Assembly: GCF_014193585.1 (NCBI RefSeq)
Contig: NZ_BLXY01000003.1
Location: forward strand, 62,001 to 126,000
Source: Geomonas paludis
GTDB taxonomy: Bacteria; Desulfobacterota; Desulfuromonadia; Geobacterales; Geobacteraceae
Reading direction: 5' to 3'
DNA length: 64,000 nt
The notes below the pieces were generated by a model, which was not told where the DNA came from, ran no database searches, and saw only the letters and a program-made list of their open reading frames with translations. Position numbers and translations under genes: made by a program. Shown here in pieces: positions 7,086 through 58,694 of this stretch; position 1 is the stretch's first letter, and every line of letters begins with the position of its first letter.

Positions 7086-7484
7086 ATGCTGGAGATCCCG
7101 AGGGAGATACTGGACGCGGTGATCGAGCAGGCGCAGCAAGGGTTCCCGCTGGAGGTGTGCGGCCTGATGGGGGGGGCGGGCAACCGCGTGGCGAGCCGCT
7201 ACCCGATGACCAACACGGACGCGAGCAACGAGCACTTCATGATGGACCCCAAGGAGCAGTTCGCCGCGGTGAAGGCGATGCGCGCCGCGGACGAAGAGAT
7301 GCTGGTGATCTACCACTCCCACCCGGAGTCCCCCGCCCGCCCCTCGCAGGAGGACATCCGTCTCGCCCTGACCCCGAACGTGTGCCACCTGATCGTGTCG
7401 CTGGAGAACCGGGAAGAGCCGGTGGCGAAGGCGTTCCGGATAGCGGCGGGCGTGGTCGAAGCGGTGGACATCGAAACCATTTAA
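7086..7484 (+). CDS. hcyD: JAMM/MPN+ metallopeptidase (Mec+/HcyD-like)
   Basis: The 132-residue protein has the JAMM zinc motif: a Glu in EVCGLMGG near residue 23, then YHSHPESPARPSQED (H-x-H...S-x-x-D). Relatives include Mec+ of Mycobacterium, which frees cysteine from CysO, and HcyD of Wolinella, which removes the C-terminal residue of HcyS and later frees homocysteine. Here the likely tasks are trimming the Arg cap of the carrier and cleaving the carrier-homocysteine adduct. The TAA stop falls at the first bases of a family D repeat. Confidence 0.88.
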   Translation: MLEIPREILDAVIEQAQQGFPLEVCGLMGGAGNRVASRYPMTNTDASNEHFMMDPKEQFAAVKAMRAADEEMLVIYHSHPESPARPSQEDIRLALTPNVCHLIVSLENREEPVAKAFRIAAGVVEAVDIETI

Positions 7485-7660
7485 CAGGGATAAAAGGGAT
7501 AAAGGGGATAACGGCAAAAGGCTTTGGGTAAAACCTTTAAACCTTAAATCTTTCAACAGGGATGAAGGGGATGAAGGGGATAACGGCAAAAGGGCTTGGG
7601 TTAACCAAAAAGCTCTTGAGGTGTTCGGTTTTATCCCTTTTATCCCCTTTATCCCTGTGA
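7481..7660. repeat. Family D repeat: inverted arrays of GGGATAAAR nonamers
   Basis: Two direct left arms starting AACAGGGAT (about 7483-7520 and 7553-7590) face one inverted right arm (7630-7658, TTATCCCTTTTATCCCC...). The tandem unit is nine bases long, so it translates as repeated Gly-Ile-Lys, or Phe-Ile-Pro on the other strand. It separates the JAMM gene from the sulfite reductase, and the JAMM stop codon overlaps its first bases. Confidence 0.85.
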
Positions 7661-19239: not shown

Positions 19240-19450
19240 AAGCTTTAGCATGTCAATGCGAGCGGCTCTGGAATACTCGTTGCGCATCCGTTTGGGTCCC
19301 TGACTACCTTTATTATCAAGATGTCCCTGGTTTCAGTCGTGGTGAGCAAGCCCTCAACAAGGCAGAGGGAAGCCTGAAGCGTCTCACCGGGGTATGTTGC
19401 GACACAGGTCAGTAATCCAATCTTCCTCGTGGCGGTATTCCGGAGCAAAA
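19240..19450 (+). ncRNA. ssrS: 6S RNA
   Basis: 6S RNA mimics an open promoter and sequesters the housekeeping RNA polymerase. GCTCTGGAATAC (19265-19276) pairs with GTATTCCGGAGC (19435-19446) with one wobble, closing a 182-nt rod of typical 6S length. The apical part is GGTGAG (19341)...CTCACC (19383) around CCCTC...GAGGG. The flanks GGTGAGCAAGCCC, GAGGGAAGCCTGAA and GTTGCGACACAGG resemble the conserved 6S core seen in E. coli (GGTGAGCATGCTC, GAGAAGCCTTAA, CTGCGACGACACA). It is preceded by a good promoter. The exact mature ends are uncertain. The identification is from remembered consensus, not a covariance search. Confidence 0.8.
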
Positions 19451-33576: not shown

Positions 33577-33779
33577 TTTAACAGGGATAACAGCGGATTA
33601 AAGGGATGGGTAAACCAAACCGTTTAAAGGCCTTTATCCCTTTCATCCCCTTCATCCCTGTTTGAATCAGTACACAAAGACATTCACTGCAAAACCGTTT
33701 AACAGGGATAACGGCGGATAAAAGGGATTGTAAAACCTATAAACAGCCTTTATCCCTTTTATCCCTTTTATCCCTGTTC
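33577..33779. repeat. Family D repeat, two tandem copies
   Basis: Two inverted elements follow one another. The first has left arm GTTTAACAGGGATAAC at about 33576 and right arm TTTATCCCTTTCATCCCC to about 33661. The second has left arm at about 33698 and right arm TTATCCCTTTTATCCC to 33779. The second ends inside the last codons of the adjacent kinase gene. Confidence 0.85.
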
Positions 33780-35648
33780 GAGTGGTTCTGGAGGGCGGGT
33801 GTTCAGGGTGAAGCAGAAGGTGCTCCCCTGCCCTGCCCCGTCCGACTCGACCCACAGCTTGCCGCCGTGAAATTCGACGATGCGCCGCGCCAGGGCCAGC
33901 CCGATACCGGTCCCCTCCGAACGGGCATCCAACTGGTTGAATAACCCGAAGATGGTTTCGTGGTACTGTGCGGGCACCCCGATACCGTTGTCGCGCACGA
34001 TGAATACCGCCCCTCCCGCTTCGTCACGCATGCCGATCTCGATGCGCGGTTGTCGCTGCTCACCCCTGTACTTGATCGCGTTCTCCACGAGGTTCTGCAG
34101 CACCTCGCCTATCCGGGGCTGGTCTCCCCATACGGTGCCCAAGCCCGGCTGCAGCACCACCTCCACCCCGGCCTGCTGAACCGGCCCGGAGAGCTGGGCA
34201 AGCACGTCTTTCACCAGCAGGTTCATGTCGATCAGGGAGGGTGCGTTGACGATGCGGCCGATGCGGGAAAGTTCCAGCAGATCGCTCAAAAGGGCCGACA
34301 TCTTGTCGGCAGCCCCCATGATGCGACGCACGTCGCCGTCCAGGCGCTGCAGGTTGCCCCCCTCGACGTCCTTGAGCACCGCACCGGCGAACCCCTTGAT
34401 GGTGATGAGCGGGCTCTTCAAGTCGTGGGACACGGTGTAGGTGAAGCGTTCCAGCTCCGCGTTCTTCGCCTCCAGTTCGGCTTCCCGCTCCATGCGCTCG
34501 CGCACTTCCTTTTCCAGGAGCACCGCCTGCTCGCGCAGGGTCTCGCTGGCCATTTTCCGGTCGGTGATGTCGCGGTTGCTGCCCCGGATGCCGTTCTCGA
34601 CGCCGCTGGCGGTGTAGACCAGACGGCAGATATGGGCGATCCAGCGGATCTCGCCGTCTTTTCTGATGATGCGGAAGTCGATCGGCTTGGGCGTACCGCA
34701 AAACGACTCCCGGACGTGGTTCTCGTAGCACGGCTGGTCATCCGGGTGCACGATGCGGTGCAACAGGTCCGGATCAGCATAGAACTCCTCGCGGCTATAG
34801 CCGGAGAGCTCAAGACAGGACGGCGAGACGTACCGGAAGGTGCGATCCGGCCCCTGCCAGTACTCCCATCCCTCGGTGTAGTCGGCCACGGTCCGGTAGC
34901 GCTCCTCGCGCTCCTCGATGGCGCGGGCGCTGCGACCGAGCACGCGTGCGCCGGTGCCGATCAGCCCCACCCCCAGCAGCCAGATGAACCCGTGGCTCAC
35001 CGCCGCGCCGGTAACCACGTCCCCCATCACCGCCGCATCGACGTCCAGCGGCACCGAGGCGCTGACGCCGCCCCTGATGTCCCCGACACGGTACCCCTGT
35101 GCCGCGTGGCACTTCAGGCAGGAAGGTTCGGTCACGAAGGGGCGCATCAGCCTCATGTAAGGGCGGCCTCCCATCTGCTGGACCTCGCTCACCTCTTTCA
35201 CCCCGGTTTCAAACTGTTTCAACGCCTTGGCCTCCCACGGGTCGGGCTTGTTTTCGGGCCGGATGGGGTTGAGGCTGGTGATGTGACCGCGCACCAGGTT
35301 GTTCTGGCTGTCGGCGAGCTCGAACACCTGCCGGGTCATGTACGCCGGGTTGACCAGCGTCAGTGCCTTGCCTGAGGGGGTGGTGACGTCGCGCTCGGGA
35401 ACGTGCTGCAGGTACGGGTTGGCAGGGCTTTGTTCCGACGCGGGCACATAGACCCCGCCATGCCGGGTCGCCCAGCGCCGGTACAGGGTATCTTTCTCGA
35501 AGGTGGCGCGCGCCTCGGCGCGGCCGATGGCCAGCACCGTTTGTTGCTCGCCCCGGTAGAACCAGTAAAAGGAGAATGCGATCCCCGCACTCCAGAACAG
35601 CACCAGGACCAGGGCAAAGCGGCGTATCTTGTGGACCTGCGTGATCAT
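33768..35648 (-). CDS. Membrane sensor histidine kinase with CXXCH-bearing Tll0287-like (DUF3365) sensor and PAS domain
   Basis: The 626-residue kinase has a membrane helix at about 11-31, a periplasmic Tll0287-like domain (about 35-205) with CLKCH at 177-181, and a second helix at about 217-233. A PAS domain (about 250-370), a short coiled coil, a HisKA domain with His408 in TYTVSHDLKSP, and a HATPase domain (NLVENAIKYR, DNGIGVP, GTGIGLAL) follow. The CXXCH motif implies covalent heme and sensing of redox state or a gaseous ligand; this is inference from the motif. The ATG at 35648 has AGAGGTG upstream. The last codons and the TAA stop lie in a family D repeat. Confidence 0.9.
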   Translation of the reverse strand: MITQVHKIRRFALVLVLFWSAGIAFSFYWFYRGEQQTVLAIGRAEARATFEKDTLYRRWATRHGGVYVPASEQSPANPYLQHVPERDVTTPSGKALTLVNPAYMTRQVFELADSQNNLVRGHITSLNPIRPENKPDPWEAKALKQFETGVKEVSEVQQMGGRPYMRLMRPFVTEPSCLKCHAAQGYRVGDIRGGVSASVPLDVDAAVMGDVVTGAAVSHGFIWLLGVGLIGTGARVLGRSARAIEEREERYRTVADYTEGWEYWQGPDRTFRYVSPSCLELSGYSREEFYADPDLLHRIVHPDDQPCYENHVRESFCGTPKPIDFRIIRKDGEIRWIAHICRLVYTASGVENGIRGSNRDITDRKMASETLREQAVLLEKEVRERMEREAELEAKNAELERFTYTVSHDLKSPLITIKGFAGAVLKDVEGGNLQRLDGDVRRIMGAADKMSALLSDLLELSRIGRIVNAPSLIDMNLLVKDVLAQLSGPVQQAGVEVVLQPGLGTVWGDQPRIGEVLQNLVENAIKYRGEQRQPRIEIGMRDEAGGAVFIVRDNGIGVPAQYHETIFGLFNQLDARSEGTGIGLALARRIVEFHGGKLWVESDGAGQGSTFCFTLNTRPPEPLEQG

Positions 35649-35668: not shown

Positions 35669-35815
35669 CAGATTAAGACTAAGACTAAGACTAAGACTAA
35701 GATTGAGACTGAGATTGAGATTAAGACTAAGACTAAAATTAAGAGTACGAGTAAGAGGAACAGGAAGACTGAGAAAGATCTGTCCTACCTTAATCTTTAT
35801 CTCAATCTTTATCTG
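35669..35815. repeat. Family F repeat: inverted arrays of GATTAA-type hexamers
   Basis: The left arm starts CAGATTAAGACTAAGACTAA and runs through hexamers GACTAA, GATTGA, GACTGA and GATTAA. The right arm is inverted and ends CTTTATCTCAATCTTTATCTG. It fills the whole gap between the two kinase genes, and its right end supplies the last three codons and the stop of the upstream kinase. Confidence 0.88.
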
Positions 35816-37865
35816 CTTCACCACGCCGGTCCAGCATCTCACGGACCTTTTTCAGCAGCACCATGGGCTTTACCGGTTTCATGACCAGCTCGGCGCCTTC
35901 CTCGAGATCGCTCCGGCTGCGGATGATGTCGGCCGTGTAGCCGCTGGTGAAAAGAATCTTCGCATCAGGCTGATATTCCCTGATGGTCTCTGCCGCTTCC
36001 TTGCCGTTCATGACCGGCATGATGATGTCCATCAGCACCAGCCTGATGCCGGTGTTTTCCTTGAACCGCTGCACCGCCTCCAGTCCGTTGGCGGCGTGGA
36101 TGATGGAATAACCGTACTGCTTGAGGATGGAGGAAACCAGGTCGAGGACATGCAGATCGTCCTCGGCGACCAGGATGGTCTCGGTGCCGCGCACGTCCGG
36201 CTCCGCGGTCGGCGCGCTCTTTTCGGGTTCTGCGGCGTTGATGGCGGGAAGATAAATCCTGAAGGTGCTGCCGATACCCGGCTCGCTGTAGACGTTCACG
36301 AACCCCTTGTGCTGGGTGATGATGCCGTAGACGATGGCAAGACCGAGCCCGGTCCCCTTGCCGACCACCTTGGTGGTGAAGAAGGGATCGAAGATCTTCT
36401 TGCGGGTGGCCTCGTCCATCCCCTGCCCGGTGTCGGAAATGGTAAGCAGGGCGTACTGTCCGGGGATGCCGAAACCGTGGGCGTGCACGAAGGCGGCGTC
36501 GATGTCGTGGCGCTCGGTCTCCACGAAGAGCCGCCCTCCCTTGGGCATGGCGTCGCGGGCATTGGCCGCCAGGTTCATCAGCACCTGCTCGATCTGCCCG
36601 CTGTCCACCACGGCCCAGAGCGCCCCTTCTGCCAGCGAGGTGGTGAGAGCGATGTCCTCTCCGATGATCCGCTGCAGGAACTTCTCCACCCCCTTGACGA
36701 TGTCGTTGAGGTTGGCAGGGGCGGCCTTCACCTCGCCTTTGCGGCTGAAGGCGAGCAGGCTGCGGGTCAGGTTGGCGGCCCGGTCCGCCGCCGCCGAGAT
36801 CTGCATCACCTTGTCGCGTGCTGGGTTGTCCTGGGGCAGGTCCAGTTTGAGCAGTTCACAGTAACCGCCGATGACGGTGAGTATGTTGTTGAAGTCGTGG
36901 GCCACGCCGCCGGCCAGCACCCCCACCGCCTCCAGTTTCTGCGAGTGGCGCAGCTGCTCCTCCAGCTTCATCCTCTCGGTGATGTCCAGGGCGATGGCCA
37001 GCAGGCGCTCGCACCCGTCCACGGTGATCCGTTGGCAGTAGTACTCCCCCTTCAGGGTCCTGCCGTCCTTGGCATGCAGGGTCACCACGGTCCCGGCGAC
37101 CTGTCCCTCCTGGTCCAGCTTGTCGATCAGGGCCTTGCGGTCGAGAGGGCTGATCCAGCCCAGGGAAGTGGAGGTCCGTCCCAGCACCTCGTCACGGCTG
37201 AAGCCGGAGAGCTCCACGAACTTGCGGTTCACGTCGAGGAAGGCCCCCTCCTCGAGGTCGGTGATCACCATGATGAGCGGCGCGCTGTCGAAGGCCTTGT
37301 GGAACTTTTCCTCGCTGAGCCGCAGGGTCTCCTGGGCCAGCTTCCGTTCCGCGATCTCCTTTTTCAGCAGCAGCGCCTGCTCCTGCAGCGCCTCCTGGGC
37401 CAACTGGCGCTCGGCCACCTCGTGTTCGAGGCGGTGGCTTTGCAGCTTGAGCGCCTCCTCCGCCCGCTTGTGCTCGAGCATGTGGTCCCACTCCCGCAGG
37501 GCGCGTTCCACGATGCGCGGCATGGCGTCGAAGACCTCGGGCATCTTCACCACGTAGTCGATGGCTCCGGACTTCATCACCTCGACCGCGACCTGCTCGC
37601 TGCCGTGCGAGGTCATCATCACTACCGGCGCTATGTCCGCCGACTGCGCCACCAGGTCGCCACCTTTGCCGTCGGGAAGGAGGTAGTCGGTGAGCACGAT
37701 GTCGTAATTCCTGCTGCGGATGCGGTCTAACGCCTCCTTCACTGTGGCGGCGACGGTCAGCTCGTACTGGCCGGACAGGTCGCTGAACCCCCGCCGGATC
37801 AACTCCGCGTGGGCGTCGTCATCCTCCACAACAAGGATCTTCTTGATTGGGCTAAGCGAGGCCAT
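35802..37865 (-). CDS. Hybrid histidine kinase REC-PAS-HisKA-HATPase-REC
   Basis: The 687-residue cytoplasmic kinase has an N-terminal receiver (Asp60 in [11 protein letters not shown]) and a coiled coil of repeated [16 protein letters not shown] units at about 130-185. A PAS domain (about 185-300), a HisKA domain with His323 in [11 protein letters not shown] and a HATPase domain ([26 protein letters not shown]) come next. A C-terminal receiver ([19 protein letters not shown]) closes it. It has no membrane segment. The ATG at 37865 has GGGAG eight bases upstream and is preferred to GTG at 37904. The stop codon TGA is read inside a family F repeat. Its proximity to the Rcp1-like regulator suggests a phosphorelay. 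Confidence 0.9.
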
Positions 37866-43814: not shown

Positions 43815-43835
43815 ATCCGCTGCACGAGAATTAAA

Positions 43836-43869
43836 AGAGGGGCGCCCTGCAAGAGCGCCCCTCTTTTTT
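43836..43869. terminator. Bidirectional terminator between the exported-protein gene and the hybrid kinase
   Basis: GAGGGGCGC-CCTGCAAGA-GCGCCCCTC is flanked by AAAA on the left and six T residues on the right, so it can serve both converging genes. Confidence 0.88.
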
Positions 43870-43880
43870 CGCCATCTGCT

Positions 43881-43912
43881 TACTCTTAATCTCAATCTCA
43901 GTCTTAATCTTG
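43881..43912. repeat. Family F repeat, single arm overlapping a gene end
   Basis: On the minus strand the kinase gene ends ...CAAGATTAA and continues as GACTGAGATTGAGATTAAGA. The TAA stop codon is the first hexamer of the repeat. Confidence 0.82.
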
Positions 43913-46156
43913 CCCCCCCAGCACCTCGGACAGCTTCCTGCTCATCTCCAGCACCTTGTACGGCTTCTGGATGAACCCGGAGAGTCCCGCACCGGCCAGC
44001 TTCAGGCTCACCTCCTGCTCGTTGTAACCGCTGGACATGATCACCTTGACGTCGGGTTTCAGGGCGCGCAGCTCCCGGAAGGTCTGCTCGCCATCCAGGT
44101 TGGGCATGGTCAGGTCGAGCAGGACGCAGACGATGTCATCCATCCCCGCCTTGAACAGTTCCACCGCTTCGCGGCCGTCGCTGGCCAGCATGACGTCGAA
44201 CCCCAGGGAACGGAGCATGTCGCTGCCGAGCACCCGGATGCTTTCCTCGTCATCGGCGAGCAGGACGGTGCCGCTGCCGTGCCACAGCTCCTGCGACTGA
44301 GGAGGCTCGGGGCAGTCGGCCGCGCCGGCGCTGCAGGGGAGCAGCAGTCTGAAGCTGCTCCCCTTCCCTTTCTCGCTGTAGACCTTGATGGCCCCCTTGT
44401 GCGCCCGCACGATACCGAGAACCGCGGCCATGCCCAGCCCTCGCCCGGTGAACTTGGTGGTGAAGAAGGGGTCGAAAATCTTGGGGATGATGTCGCGATC
44501 GATGCCGCAGCCGGTGTCGGAGACCTCGAGTACCACGTAGCACCCTTCCGGGAGCCGGTCGTCGATCCAGGATTCCGAGAGATAGGAGCGGTCGCACTGC
44601 ATGCTCCTGGTGCTGATGGAAATGAGACCGGTCCCCTCGTCCATCGCCTCCGAGGCGTTGATGACCAGGTTGAGGATCACCTGGCGCAGCTGGGTCGCGT
44701 CCCCGCTGATGGCCGGCAGGTCCGGGGCGAAGTTGTAGCGCAGCAGCGCCTTTTTGGAGATGGAGACCTCGAGCATGGAGCCCATGTCCTGCACGAGCCG
44801 GTTCAGGTCGAGCTTTTCGATGACGAAGTTGCCCCTGCCGGAGTAGGCGAGCATCTGGCGCGCCAGGTCAGCCGCCCGGGTGGCGGCCTGCTCGATCTGG
44901 ACCAGGTTCTCGGTGGCAGGGGAGTCGGGAGGGACCCGAAGCAAGGCGAGGTCGGCGTTGCCGAGCACCACCATGAGGATGTTGTTGAAGTCGTGCGCGA
45001 TGCCGCCCGCCAGCACGCCCAGGCTTTCCAGCTTCTGCACGTGCAGCATCTGGGCCTCGATCTGGCGTTTCTCCTCCTCGAGCCGTTTTCGCTCGGTCAT
45101 GTCGACCGAGATGAACATCAGGTGGTGGGTCCCCTCGACGTCAAAGCGGGACAGGAACACCTCAACCTGGAGATCCCTGCCGAAAGAGGTAGAGATGGCC
45201 ACCTCCATGTTGCGGGTCTGGCCGTCAGCCAGCACCCGCTCACCCAGTTCGTAGATGCCGGTTTCCTTGAAGGAGGCGATGCTCCTGAAGTTCTGGCTCA
45301 GCAGCCCTTCCACGGTACCGCCGACCATGCCTGCGATGGAGTGGTTCGCCTTGACGCAGGCGCCGGTCTCGCCGTCGTAGACCAGGATGCCGGTAGGCGA
45401 CGAGGCCAGCAGCGATTCCAACATGGCCAGGGCGCGGTCGCGCGCCTCCTCGACCCTCTTTCTCTCGGTTATGTTCTCGTACACGCCGAGGACGCCCACC
45501 ACGGCGCCGCTGTCGTCGCAGAGGGGAACCTTGGTGGTGTCGACCCAGTGACGGTCACCGCTGGCCTGGAGCTGCTGTTCGATGATGTGGTATTTCGGGG
45601 TGTTGCTGTCCATGACGCTACGGTCATCGGCCCGGTAGGCGTCGCTCTCTTCCTGCAGCCAGGGCAGGTCGTAGTCGCTCTTGCCGCGGATCAGCTCGGT
45701 CCGGTCCAGGCCGGCCCCCCGTGCGAAGACCATGTTGCATCCCTCGTAGACGCTGTTTCGGTCCTTCCAGAAGACGAACTGCGGGATGGTGTCGATGATC
45801 TGCGCCAGCATGTTGCGCCCCTGCCGCAGTTCCTCCTCGACCCGCTCCCGTTCCACGAGTTCCTGTTTCAACTGCTCGTTGGCCTGGTGCAGTTCCTCGG
45901 TTCTCTCGGCTACCCTCTGTTCGAGCTCTTCCTTGGCCCGCCGCAGTTCCTCCTCGACCTGGGCCTGCTTGCGGGCCTTCACCTGGAGAGCTTTGCCCAG
46001 TACCAAGGCAAAAAGCGCGAAGAGGGCCACTACCACGGCCAATTGCAGCCAGTCGCCCTGCCAGTGGAATCCCCCGGGCGCCGCCACGGCGGCAAAGCCC
46101 GGGGACAGGCGCCGGCTGCAGGAACTTCCGGGGATGGTTTGTGTGAGGTGCGGCAT
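43904..46156 (-). CDS. Membrane-bound hybrid histidine kinase (TM-coiled coil-PAS-PAS-HisKA-HATPase-REC)
   Basis: The 750-residue kinase has one hydrophobic helix at about 38-55, a charged coiled coil at 60-115, PAS domains at about 118-235 and 243-355, and HisKA with His388 in [13 protein letters not shown]. The HATPase has NLVINASEAMDEG, DTGCGIDRDI and a GRGLGMAAVLGI lid. The C-terminal receiver has LLDLTMPNLDGEQ. The G2-like box GRGLGMA is the variant common to HDFNN kinases. The ATG at 46156 has AGGAGAG upstream; earlier starts lack one. No cognate regulator is adjacent apart from the MshEN-REC gene upstream. Confidence 0.9.
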   Translation of the reverse strand: MPHLTQTIPGSSCSRRLSPGFAAVAAPGGFHWQGDWLQLAVVVALFALFALVLGKALQVKARKQAQVEEELRRAKEELEQRVAERTEELHQANEQLKQELVERERVEEELRQGRNMLAQIIDTIPQFVFWKDRNSVYEGCNMVFARGAGLDRTELIRGKSDYDLPWLQEESDAYRADDRSVMDSNTPKYHIIEQQLQASGDRHWVDTTKVPLCDDSGAVVGVLGVYENITERKRVEEARDRALAMLESLLASSPTGILVYDGETGACVKANHSIAGMVGGTVEGLLSQNFRSIASFKETGIYELGERVLADGQTRNMEVAISTSFGRDLQVEVFLSRFDVEGTHHLMFISVDMTERKRLEEEKRQIEAQMLHVQKLESLGVLAGGIAHDFNNILMVVLGNADLALLRVPPDSPATENLVQIEQAATRAADLARQMLAYSGRGNFVIEKLDLNRLVQDMGSMLEVSISKKALLRYNFAPDLPAISGDATQLRQVILNLVINASEAMDEGTGLISISTRSMQCDRSYLSESWIDDRLPEGCYVVLEVSDTGCGIDRDIIPKIFDPFFTTKFTGRGLGMAAVLGIVRAHKGAIKVYSEKGKGSSFRLLLPCSAGAADCPEPPQSQELWHGSGTVLLADDEESIRVLGSDMLRSLGFDVMLASDGREAVELFKAGMDDIVCVLLDLTMPNLDGEQTFRELRALKPDVKVIMSSGYNEQEVSLKLAGAGLSGFIQKPYKVLEMSRKLSEVLGGQD

Positions 46157-46324
46157 CTGCTCTCCTACTGCCAGCGGGCGGCCCTGCGAGACGAGCCGGC
46201 GCGGCGGGTGCAGCATCGATGAGGGATGGTGCTGGGTTGGATTTCTTTTCGGCAAGGACCACTGGCTTCATTAGGGAAAAACGGTGTCGCGGGCGCGGAG
46301 GGAGGAAATGACGGCATCGGCGCT

Positions 46325-48089: not shown

Positions 48090-48962
48090 TTACCAGTCTC
48101 CCGAAGCGCCGCCGCCGCCGAAGTCGCCCCCACCGCCGGAGAAGCCGCCTCCGCCCCCGCCGCCAAAACCGCCGAAGCCGCCACCCCCGCCGTAGCCGCC
48201 GAAGAAGGGGGGGCCTCCCATGAAGCCGCCGCGCCCTCCCGAGGAGAAGAGGAAGGCGATGAAGAGGCCGGCCAGGAAGCCGACCACCGCCAGCGCTCCC
48301 AGCAGGAGCAGCGAGACCCCGGAGAAGGAGATAAAGGCGGCAACGGGGAGGCCGATGGCTCCGGCAACCCCGCCCAGGAAGCGCGAGATGCCACCCAGGA
48401 AGACCGAGGCGACCAGGACGAAGAGAAGCAGCGTCAGTATCGGTGGCGCCCCCTTCTTGCCATGGCGCAGGTCGGTGGCCTGCGCCTGGTACTCGCCGCG
48501 CACCGTCGCCATGATGGCGTCCACGCCGCGGGAAATGCCGATGTCGAACTCACCGCGCTTGAAGGCGGGGGTGATCTCGTTGCGGATGATGCGTCCGGAC
48601 ATGAGGTCGGTCAGCTTCCCTTCCAGCCCCCGCCCGACTTCGATACGGATCTTGCGGTCGTTTTTGACCACCAGCAGCAGCGCGCCGTTGTCCTTCCCCT
48701 TCTGCCCCAGCTGCCACTTCTCCACCACCTTGATGGAATACTGCTCCAGCACCTCACCCTCCAGGCTCGGGATGGTGAGGATCACGATCTGGGTCGAGTC
48801 GCTAGCCTCGAAGGCGGTCAGCTCCGATTCCAGCTGCTGCGCCATTTGCGGCGAAAGCATCGAGGCGTAGTCGTTCACGTGGCTGCGCAGCGGCGGCACC
48901 TCCGCCGCCGCGCAGACCTGGACCGTCAGCAAGAATATGAGGAGCAAAAACAGCTTTTTCAT
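48090..48962 (-). CDS. TPM-domain protein with Gly-rich C-terminal tail (YgcG-like)
   Basis: The 290-residue protein has a signal peptide (MKKLFLLLIFLLTVQVCAAA) and a periplasmic TPM domain at about 25-165 (VNDYASMLSPQMAQQLESEL, then DNGALLLVVKNDRKIRIEVG). Two or three membrane helices follow at about 175-235. A glycine-rich tail of about 50 residues ends FGGGGASGDW. The tail is low-complexity, with runs of Gly and Phe. It directly precedes the second TPM gene; the start of one touches the stop of the other. Confidence 0.9.
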   Translation of the reverse strand: MKKLFLLLIFLLTVQVCAAAEVPPLRSHVNDYASMLSPQMAQQLESELTAFEASDSTQIVILTIPSLEGEVLEQYSIKVVEKWQLGQKGKDNGALLLVVKNDRKIRIEVGRGLEGKLTDLMSGRIIRNEITPAFKRGEFDIGISRGVDAIMATVRGEYQAQATDLRHGKKGAPPILTLLLFVLVASVFLGGISRFLGGVAGAIGLPVAAFISFSGVSLLLLGALAVVGFLAGLFIAFLFSSGGRGGFMGGPPFFGGYGGGGGFGGFGGGGGGGFSGGGGDFGGGGASGDW

Positions 48963-48976
48963 GGGCGCCTCAAAGG

Positions 48977-49073
48977 CAGATTAAGATTGAGATTAAGATT
49001 GAGATAAAGAGAAAGACACAGAAACTACGACGACCTAAGTCTTGGACTTAATCTCTATCTTAGTCTTAATCTG
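48977..49073. repeat. Family F repeat, two inverted arms
   Basis: The left end is GGCAGATTAAGATTGAGATT and the right end is CTCTATCTTAGTCTTAATCTG. It fills the gap between lemA and the first TPM gene and starts four bases after the lemA stop codon, inside what appears to be one operon. Confidence 0.87.
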
Positions 49074-49077
49074 TTTT

Positions 49078-49662
49078 TCAGAACTTGATCTTGGGCGCCA
49101 CCTTGGCCCCCTCTTCCGCCTTGAACGGCTCCTTGCGCTGCAGGTGCAGCATCATGGAGTTGGTGAGCGAGTTCGGGAAGGTCCTGATGGTGGTGTTGAA
49201 ATCCTGCACCGCCTGGTTGTAGCGCACGCGCGCCACGTTGATCCGGTTCTCGGTCCCCTCCAGCTGGTTCTGCAGGTCCATGAAGTTCTGGTTGGCCTTC
49301 AGGTCCGGGTAGCGCTCGACCACGACCATGAGGCGGGACAGCGCACCGCTCAACTGGGACTGGGCCGCCTGGAAGTTCTGCATGGTCTTGGGATCGTTGA
49401 CGGCGTCCTTGGAAACCTGCATGGAGCCCACCTTGGCGCGGGCCTCGGTGACCGCCTTCAGGGTATCGGCCTCGTGCTTGGCGTACCCTTTGACGACCTC
49501 GACCAGGTTGGGCACCAGGTCGGCGCGGCGCTGGTAGGAAGCCTCTACATCGCCCCAGGCGGCGAAGACGGCCTCTTCTTTCGCCTGCATGGTGTTATAG
49601 CCGCAGCCGGAAAGTGCGGCAAGGGTGAACAGCGACAGCAAAAGTAACGTCAGGCGTTTCAT
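49078..49662 (-). CDS. lemA: LemA family lipoprotein
   Basis: The 194-residue protein has a lipoprotein signal ([20 protein letters not shown], lipobox LSGC), then a helical LemA core with [20 protein letters not shown] and the [20 protein letters not shown] signature near residue 48. [20 protein letters not shown] lies near 150. The C-terminal segment is [10 protein letters not shown]. The ATG at 49662 has AAGGAGGATC upstream. LemA and TPM proteins occur together in many bacteria; the molecular function is unknown. Confidence 0.93.
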
Positions 49663-58038: not shown

Positions 58039-58044
58039 TAAAAA

Positions 58045-58070
58045 AAAACCCGCCGGTGGGCGGGTTTTTT
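58045..58070. terminator. Terminator downstream of the secDF-TPR genes
   Basis: AACCCGCC-GGT-GGGCGGGTT lies between A and T runs, so it is bidirectional in form. It should end the minus-strand sec/TPR transcript before recJ. Confidence 0.85.
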
Positions 58071-58074
58071 CTCC

Positions 58075-58109
58075 ATCTTTTTCTTTATCTTAATCTCAAT
58101 CTTAATCTG
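58075..58109. repeat. Family F repeat, single arm
   Basis: On the minus strand CAGATTAAGATTGAGATTAA with GATAAAGAAAAAGATGG. It starts nine bases after the TPR gene stop codon, in the same orientation relative to the gene as the other family F copies. Confidence 0.78.
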
Positions 58110-58118
58110 TCTCTTCCC

Positions 58119-58694
58119 TTACTTCTTGAACGAGGTCGGCATCTGGTTCAGGCCTGCCATGTCGTTCTTGATCTGCTGTGCCGTCGGGCTGGTCGAGTCG
58201 AACTGCAGGTACTTGGTCCAGATCTCCTTGGCCTTGTCCGGCTGTTTCAGGTCCTGGAGGTAGACCACGCCGAGGTTGTACAGGCTTTGCAGATGCTTGG
58301 GGTCGATCGACTGCGCCTTCTCGAAGTTGGCGATCGCCTTGTCGTACCAGCCGATCTTGCGGTACATGATGCCCTGGTCGGTCATCACGTTCAGGTTGTT
58401 GGGATCGAGCTCCAGGGCCTTGCCGTAGGCGTTGACCGCCTTCTGGGCCTGGTCGGTGTCGAAGTAGTCGTTGCCAAGCTGGATCCAGGCCTGCAGGTTC
58501 TTGGGATCCGCGGCCACGATCTTCTCGGCCTCGACGATGCGCCGCTGGTAGTCGGTCGGCGAACCCGCGCCCTGCGGCACGCTCATGGCGACCTCGGGAG
58601 CCTTATTCTGGCCGGCGATGTTGAAGATCAGGTAGCCTCCCAGAAGCCCCACGATCAGCGCTACCACTATGGTGAGTACGTTCTCCTTGTTCAC
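58119..58694 (-). CDS. Membrane-anchored TPR protein
   Basis: The 191-residue protein has an N-terminal membrane helix at about 6-26 (VLTIVVALIVGLLGGYLIFN). Three or four TPR units follow between about 60 and 175 (LQAWIQLGNDYFDTDQAQKA, VMTDQGIMYRKIGWYDKAIA, LQSLYNLGVVYLQDLKQPDK). The domain probably faces the periplasm. It follows secF by nine bases and starts with GTG after AGGAGGT. The location suggests a role with the Sec machinery or just co-transcription. Confidence 0.87.
   Translation of the reverse strand: MNKENVLTIVVALIVGLLGGYLIFNIAGQNKAPEVAMSVPQGAGSPTDYQRRIVEAEKIVAADPKNLQAWIQLGNDYFDTDQAQKAVNAYGKALELDPNNLNVMTDQGIMYRKIGWYDKAIANFEKAQSIDPKHLQSLYNLGVVYLQDLKQPDKAKEIWTKYLQFDSTSPTAQQIKNDMAGLNQMPTSFKK

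Follow-up and report, generated by a model that had tools for sequence, protein, structure and literature searches.

Geobacter species provide the closest described counterparts of the repeats analyzed here. In Geobacter bemidjiensis and G. metallireducens, intergenic direct repeats of 6 to 42 nt occur throughout the genome (PMC2996986, PMC2700814). Specifically, G. metallireducens possesses tandem octamer and heptamer arrays, mostly as opposite-strand pairs at variable distance, and IHF or HU sites have been suggested as their function (PMC2700814). The arrays that we describe lie in related bacteria and are likewise dispersed, short-unit, intergenic tandem repeats that mostly form opposite-strand pairs. 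Unlike those multicopy reports, as far as their available text goes, the present analysis documents stop-codon placement, unit switching at orthologous sites, and a test of arm pairing; the comparison leaves unit identity aside.

Analogous features exist in more distant systems. REP, REPIN, and BIME sequences, which are associated with RAYT transposases, are high-copy, extragenic, and species-specific, and they form inverted doublets (PMC2817692, PMC3116915). Unlike REPs, which are palindromes in these accounts, the unit AGAYTR is a degenerate, non-palindromic tandem 6-mer, and the inversion is between arms. Moreover, in the portions of these papers available to us, RAYT presence correlates with the cognate repeats, a correlation that fails for the arrays here. 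Similarly, the TAACTGA heptamers of the Beggiatoaceae are dispersed intergenic tandem short repeats with a preferred orientation, and some overlap a stop codon; unlike our arrays, they sit just upstream of start codons, and the accessible text gives an inverted case in 1 of 170 sets (PMC4679880). The closest parallel to unit switching in the texts at hand is the P6b stem of the Nostoc trnL intron, which is built on one of two complementary tandem motifs (Class I and Class II heptamers) and in which the entire region has been swapped from one motif class to another at the same site (PMC4476775). In contrast to the arrays here, P6b is described there as a single intron site with an obligatorily pairing stem, not a repeat dispersed at gene ends. 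We found no prior description of AGATTA hexamer arrays in the literature, a search to which the supplementary tables of the Geobacter papers did not belong. Thus, multicopy sequences of this general kind are already published for Geobacter, and the new element is unit switching.

Four hexamer arrays in the window

The window is the whole 64,000-nt stretch analyzed here, positions 62001-126000 of contig C3 in a 5.1-Mb Geomonas genome (G000, the own genome below). In keeping with this genus, congener G012 is identical downstream of lemA to Geomonas azotofigens Red51. All four hexamer arrays that a sequence-only reading had picked out are present, and the inverted second arm claimed for two of them exists: elements 1 (35670-35814) and 3 (48978-49072) are paired, and elements 2 and 4 are single-armed. 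That reading also had AGATTA running in the sense direction after the stop codon. The adjoining genes are all on the minus strand, and the orientation is as described for all four elements; the copies put at 35669 and 48977, however, are the far arms, which lie just before the next gene's start region, and the stop-proximal arm is the other one in each case. The features are as follows.

35670..35774, plus strand: far arm of element 1; its roughly 17 units decay as the loop is approached, and its end meets the start region of gene 33768-35648
35789..35814, minus strand: stop-proximal arm of element 1, 26 bp; includes the TGA stop (35802-35804) of the hybrid histidine kinase gene 35802-37865
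43834..43869, no strand assigned: intrinsic-terminator-like hairpin adjoining element 2, common to the element 2 side and the convergent gene
43879..43911, minus strand: single arm of element 2; its internal TAA (43904-43906) is the stop of the histidine kinase gene 43904-46216
48978..49017, plus strand: far arm of element 3, immediately 5' of the TPM-domain gene 48090-48962
49035..49072, minus strand: stop-proximal arm of element 3, located 3' of the LemA gene, whose stop is at 49078-49080
58040..58069, minus strand: intrinsic terminator 3' of element 4, seen in all 19 genomes read at the site, with a variable spacer preceding it
58070..58108, minus strand: single arm of element 4, lying after the stop of the TPR protein gene (58119-58694) and before that gene's terminator

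The array's own TAA or TGA serves as the gene stop in several cases, among them the window stops at 35802 (TGA) and 43904 (TAA); at 49078 and 58119 the stop codon lies 5-10 bp outside the array. Kinase orthologues without the element 1 array terminate earlier than the 35802-37865 product, as the orthologous-site comparison reveals. The products of the genes preceding the four arrays are LemA, the TPR protein, and two histidine kinases that carry receiver domains, and downstream of the paired elements lie another histidine kinase (element 1) and the TPM-domain protein (element 3). No Rfam family overlaps the elements; the sole Rfam match in the window, elsewhere, is a 6S RNA gene (19262-19450, plus strand, 49 bits).

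A dispersed family with a sister unit

The four window copies are members of a dispersed family of period-6 AGAYTR arrays. A strict 21-base AGAYTR pattern (AGAYTRAGAYTRAGAYTRAGA) matches the own genome 118 times, and its reversed control 0 times. Among 58 relatives, counting the own genome, 11 contain the pattern, and all are Geomonas: the own genome and 10 of its 18 congeners. None of the 39 genomes from other genera has it, and matches per genome range from 0 to 118. Two of 394 further genomes sampled from the phylum contain it. The strict pattern is also carried by 84 viral stretches. A sister type, AGGTYR, has only 2 matches in the own genome, yet it is common in several congeners, and AGGTYR arrays occur in 13 of the 39 other-genus genomes of the order (reversed controls, 0 to 4 per genome). 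In one congener, an exceptionally long pure AGACTG run is followed on the same strand by AGGTTG units (G013:C10:82724-82932), which suggests that the two types expanded next to each other by local slippage.

Arms have a recognizable anatomy. In 73 arms, a set favored by the search pattern itself, the outer edge is abrupt, with a flank RRGC giving way to AGATTA: the mean unit match is 2.1/6 just outside vs 5.7/6 in unit 1, the flank consensus is purines then C (C at -1 in 48 of the 73), each of units 1-4 is regular in 89% of arms or more and unit 5 in 44%, and the modal length is 26-28 bp. The same 26-28 bp mode is found in 16 of 31 arms that lack the search pattern. By eye, loops look unrelated, save in tandemly duplicated elements, and some loops hold a terminator. 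Two elements of the own genome, L029 and L060, are tandemly duplicated in their entirety, with periods of 129 bp and 83 bp. We rejected the arrays themselves as intrinsic terminators: arms are AT-rich and have no T run, and the true terminators are beside or between arms.

Placement and orientation at gene ends

Enrichment near stop codons had been proposed beforehand as a test of the sequence-only reading. When the test was run, 39 of 42 own-genome elements lay within 20 bp of a stop codon, a proximity that is partly automatic in short gaps; of the 14 elements in roomier gaps (spare length of 60 bp or more), 11 are near the stop vs 3.3 expected. The 42 elements come from places among the matches listed and from 400 kb of C3, and the gene calls are those of a home-made gene finder. 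None of the 42 elements is in a divergent gap, a class that makes up 33 of the 241 gaps of the baseline (Fisher p = 0.0035). Convergent gaps hold 15 of 42 (one context label corrected) vs 30 of 241 at baseline, and the remaining elements are tandem. The label '+-' of C3_108000 was wrong, its true context being tandem, because the gene finder had mis-called the TPM-domain gene.

Orientation follows one rule, as had been claimed. Read in the sense direction, an element opens with its purine-rich arm, and the inverted arm, if there is one, follows; specifically, the sense arm is first and the inverted arm last in all 24 multi-arm elements, and 16 of 18 single arms are sense to the preceding gene. 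A crude detector places terminators beside or inside 8 of the 42 elements.

Other units share the architecture

The proposal that unrelated units share one architecture is borne out: 9-mers, 8-mers, 7-mers, and 6-mers are all found. A unit-blind de novo detector recovers 27 inverted tandem arrays from 1249 intergenic gaps (9 Geomonas genomes, 2.0 Mb) and 0 from dinucleotide shuffles or coding controls. This detector tolerates transitions; a stricter first version, too strict for degenerate units, found 9. Unit sizes are 6, 7, 8, 9, and 10 bp, and 25 of the 27 arrays adjoin a gene 3' end, with 2 in divergent gaps. The window itself holds 9-mer arrays.

7482..7656, no strand assigned: 9-mer array, unit AGGGATAAA, two sense arms after a stop codon plus one inverted arm
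33578..33782, no strand assigned: two 9-mer inverted arrays in succession

The 9-mer type AGGGATRAA / TTTATCCC has 61 strict matches in the own genome; the strict pattern occurs in 16 of the 19 Geomonas genomes and in 2 of the 39 others. In a distant group, a Desulfocapsa sp. MAG carries a heptamer inverted array, AGTTATC / TAACTGA (L211, 2958-3133), whose unit resembles the TAACTGA repeats of the Beggiatoaceae.

Units switch at orthologous sites

What congeners carry in an orthologous gap ranges from AGAYTR or AGGTYR forms of the array to remnants, other repeats, or no repeat at all, and array length at these sites varies between species. Unit types at congener sites were judged by eye, and some 'G+' table labels, which stemmed from downstream coding sequence, went unused. 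The 3' site of lemA, read in 18 genomes, exemplifies the range. G000, G002, and G010 have AGAYTR pairs there, G018 has an AGATAA-like one, and the pairs of G012 and G013 are AGGTYR; G003 and G017 retain single remnants, G015 carries a heptamer array, and most others show no recognizable array. At the kinase-pair site (15 genomes), only G002 has the element in common with the own genome, and gaps are short in G013, G006, G010, and others. At the TPR-gene site (19 genomes), the terminator is kept in all and the spacer before it is variable.

Ten further sites, each read in up to eight congeners, again show an array that is AGA-type, AGG-type, another repeat, or missing. Clean empty sites, where the stop codon leads directly to the next gene's start region, exist for L005 in G012 and G017 and for L059 in G003 and G017. 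At L065, by eye, the terminator between the arms is recognizable in 9 of 9 genomes, and the arms around it are AGA-type in G000, G002 (first arm), and G013 and AGG-type in G003, G006, G010, and G017; G018 has a run of about 10 AGGCTA units. Because the repeat unit differs between related species at one place, something keeps rewriting these spacers. At L056 (upstream of the gene starting MRKPVIAGNWKLYK) and L005, one gap carries different, unrelated repeat families by species, for example GTCGGACC-like octamers and CCCTCCGGGGGAGGGG and GGGCGAATAATTATTCGCCC hairpins.

Arms match in type and not in pairing

Both arms of an element are of the same unit type in 41 of 43 pairs outside G000, vs 27.7 expected under within-species shuffling (p = 5e-5). 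The strict count that includes G000 is 66 of 68 and omits 12 pairs; a looser count of 75 of 80, which contained weak pairs from bulk stretches, was unused. Minority-type units show no preference for the inner end (35 inner vs 29 outer, p = 0.53), and ordered growth from one end is therefore unsupported; a broader tally, contaminated with matches in coding sequence, was set aside.

In the 27 own-genome pairs, own arms pair worse than swapped arms, with a sum of -666 vs -711 +/- 17 kcal/mol. Specifically, 99.6% of permutations pair better or equally well, and 0.4% pair worse. Selection for RNA pairing predicts the opposite, and thus an RNA hairpin kept by selection is unsupported as the driver; nor is there compensatory matching in these 27 pairs.

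Enzymes do not track the arrays

Either slippage or a transposase had been suggested as the common maker of these arrays, with a RAYT-like enzyme as the candidate. Slippage is evident in some arrays (G018, L065); neither a RAYT-like transposase nor a selected RNA hairpin is supported as driver. The Y1_Tnp family, to which RAYTs belong, occurs in 18 of 19 Geomonas genomes, but not in proportion to arrays: G013 has 79 array matches and 0 Y1_Tnp, and G004 has 0 matches and 7 Y1_Tnp. The own genome has five Y1_Tnp genes, two of them on a contig beyond the matches listed; among those matches no array lies within 4 kb of the other three. A reverse-transcriptase driver was likewise rejected: the enzyme is present in 7 of 19 genomes, and G013 and G014 have none yet carry many arrays.

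What could make and maintain the arrays

Mobile elements of the REP/BIME or MITE kind, moved by a RAYT or another transposase, would account for repeats that are dispersed, intergenic, and inverted-armed, whose outer edge is sharp, whose sites are found empty in congeners, and whose count ranges so widely among genomes, and inverted REP doublets with spacers have a similar outline in the available part of PMC3116915. Set against this notion are the Y1_Tnp and reverse-transcriptase counts, neither of which tracks arrays, the loops, which differ between elements, and the unit type, which switches around a conserved terminator. Hallmarks of MITEs were not seen: loops compared by eye have no common internal sequence, tandem duplicates aside, and no target duplication was recognised at the sites read. 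We regard mobility of this kind as very unlikely. Ordinary, unconnected microsatellites, born of slippage at AT-rich gene ends, are already disfavored and strike us as barely credible. Some arrays do show slippage expansion, and relatives have A/G-rich spacers at the corresponding place, but one degenerate unit at dozens of sites and across genera is not expected of such microsatellites, nor are a sharp edge, fixed orientation, and an inverted partner arm.

Could the arrays instead be functional 3'-UTR elements? The sense, purine-rich arm would then be an unstructured spacer from stop to terminator, and paired arms would form a hairpin protecting or separating operon messages. Strict 3'-end placement and sense orientation fit this role, as do the terminators directly after or inside some elements and the terminator at the 58119 site, which persists while the preceding spacer varies. 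However, purifying selection acting on insertions of any kind would yield the same placement, pairing is worse between own arms than between swapped ones, and the gaps are empty at the same genes in many congeners; we consider the role unlikely. By analogy with the IHF/HU proposal for the paired octamer and heptamer arrays of Geobacter metallireducens, the arrays might be binding sites for a nucleoid or regulatory protein. Arm length that is near-constant whatever the unit size and the recurrence of AGGTYR across several genera point that way, and the published Geobacter text offers a precedent as far as it was available (PMC2700814). The candidate sites, though, are at gene ends and not promoters, and the unit differs between close species at orthologous sites; in our estimate protein binding is quite unlikely.

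Our best reading, held with moderate confidence, is that these are fast turning-over inverted tandem arrays in tolerant 3' gaps, shaped by insertion or seeding, in-place turnover, slippage, probably arm-to-arm copying, and perhaps a trans factor. An element has either a single arm or two, with some 26-28 bp (slightly over four hexamers) per arm and the fixed RRGC-AGATTA edge as each arm's starting point, and it occupies the gap from the stop codon to the next terminator, start region, or convergent stop codon. Arrays arise by insertion or seeding in such gaps, a step to which the clean empty sites in congeners attest, and then turn over in place, as indicated by single sites with a conserved terminator at which unit and length differ by species. 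Slippage alters unit number and, together with copying between arms, may be the engine. The arms would anneal as a hairpin during replication, and copying between them could keep an element to one type, consistent with the type sharing observed. Near-perfect palindromes tend to be lost; perfect ones are probably purged here, which would account for the slightly poorer pairing of own arms relative to random ones. The cell would tolerate the arrays because they are outside coding and promoter DNA, and a useful role for them in the cell is possible.

Several observations count against this best reading. Arm-to-arm copying predicts that unit order should be correlated to some extent between an element's two arms, and no such correlation is seen in the 27 own-genome pairs; nor do minority-type units favor the inner end. 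Furthermore, loops are unrelated between most elements, giving no seeding route. A unit common to several genera is awkward for pure slippage, and an additional factor is therefore needed: acting in trans, it may be what lets a single hexamer type predominate throughout a genome and AGGTYR recur in different genera. We speculate, as an unlikely but consequential extension, that the hexamer is specified in trans by a cellular factor, either a reader binding the arms or a writer copying them, with one unit type per species.

Implications for Geomonas gene ends

If such specification in trans holds, dozens of unlinked gene ends would switch from AGGTYR to AGAYTR together, in both arms and around conserved terminators. 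A bacterial satellite dispersed over mRNA 3' ends would then be evolving in concert across the whole genome. If our best reading is right, rewriting of the spaces that follow stop codons is fast and coordinated in these bacteria. The arrays would then constitute a natural experiment both on how dispersed repeats stay alike without a known transposase and on how much a 3' gap tolerates. Comparing species that carry different units at the same site makes the question directly testable in culturable Geomonas.
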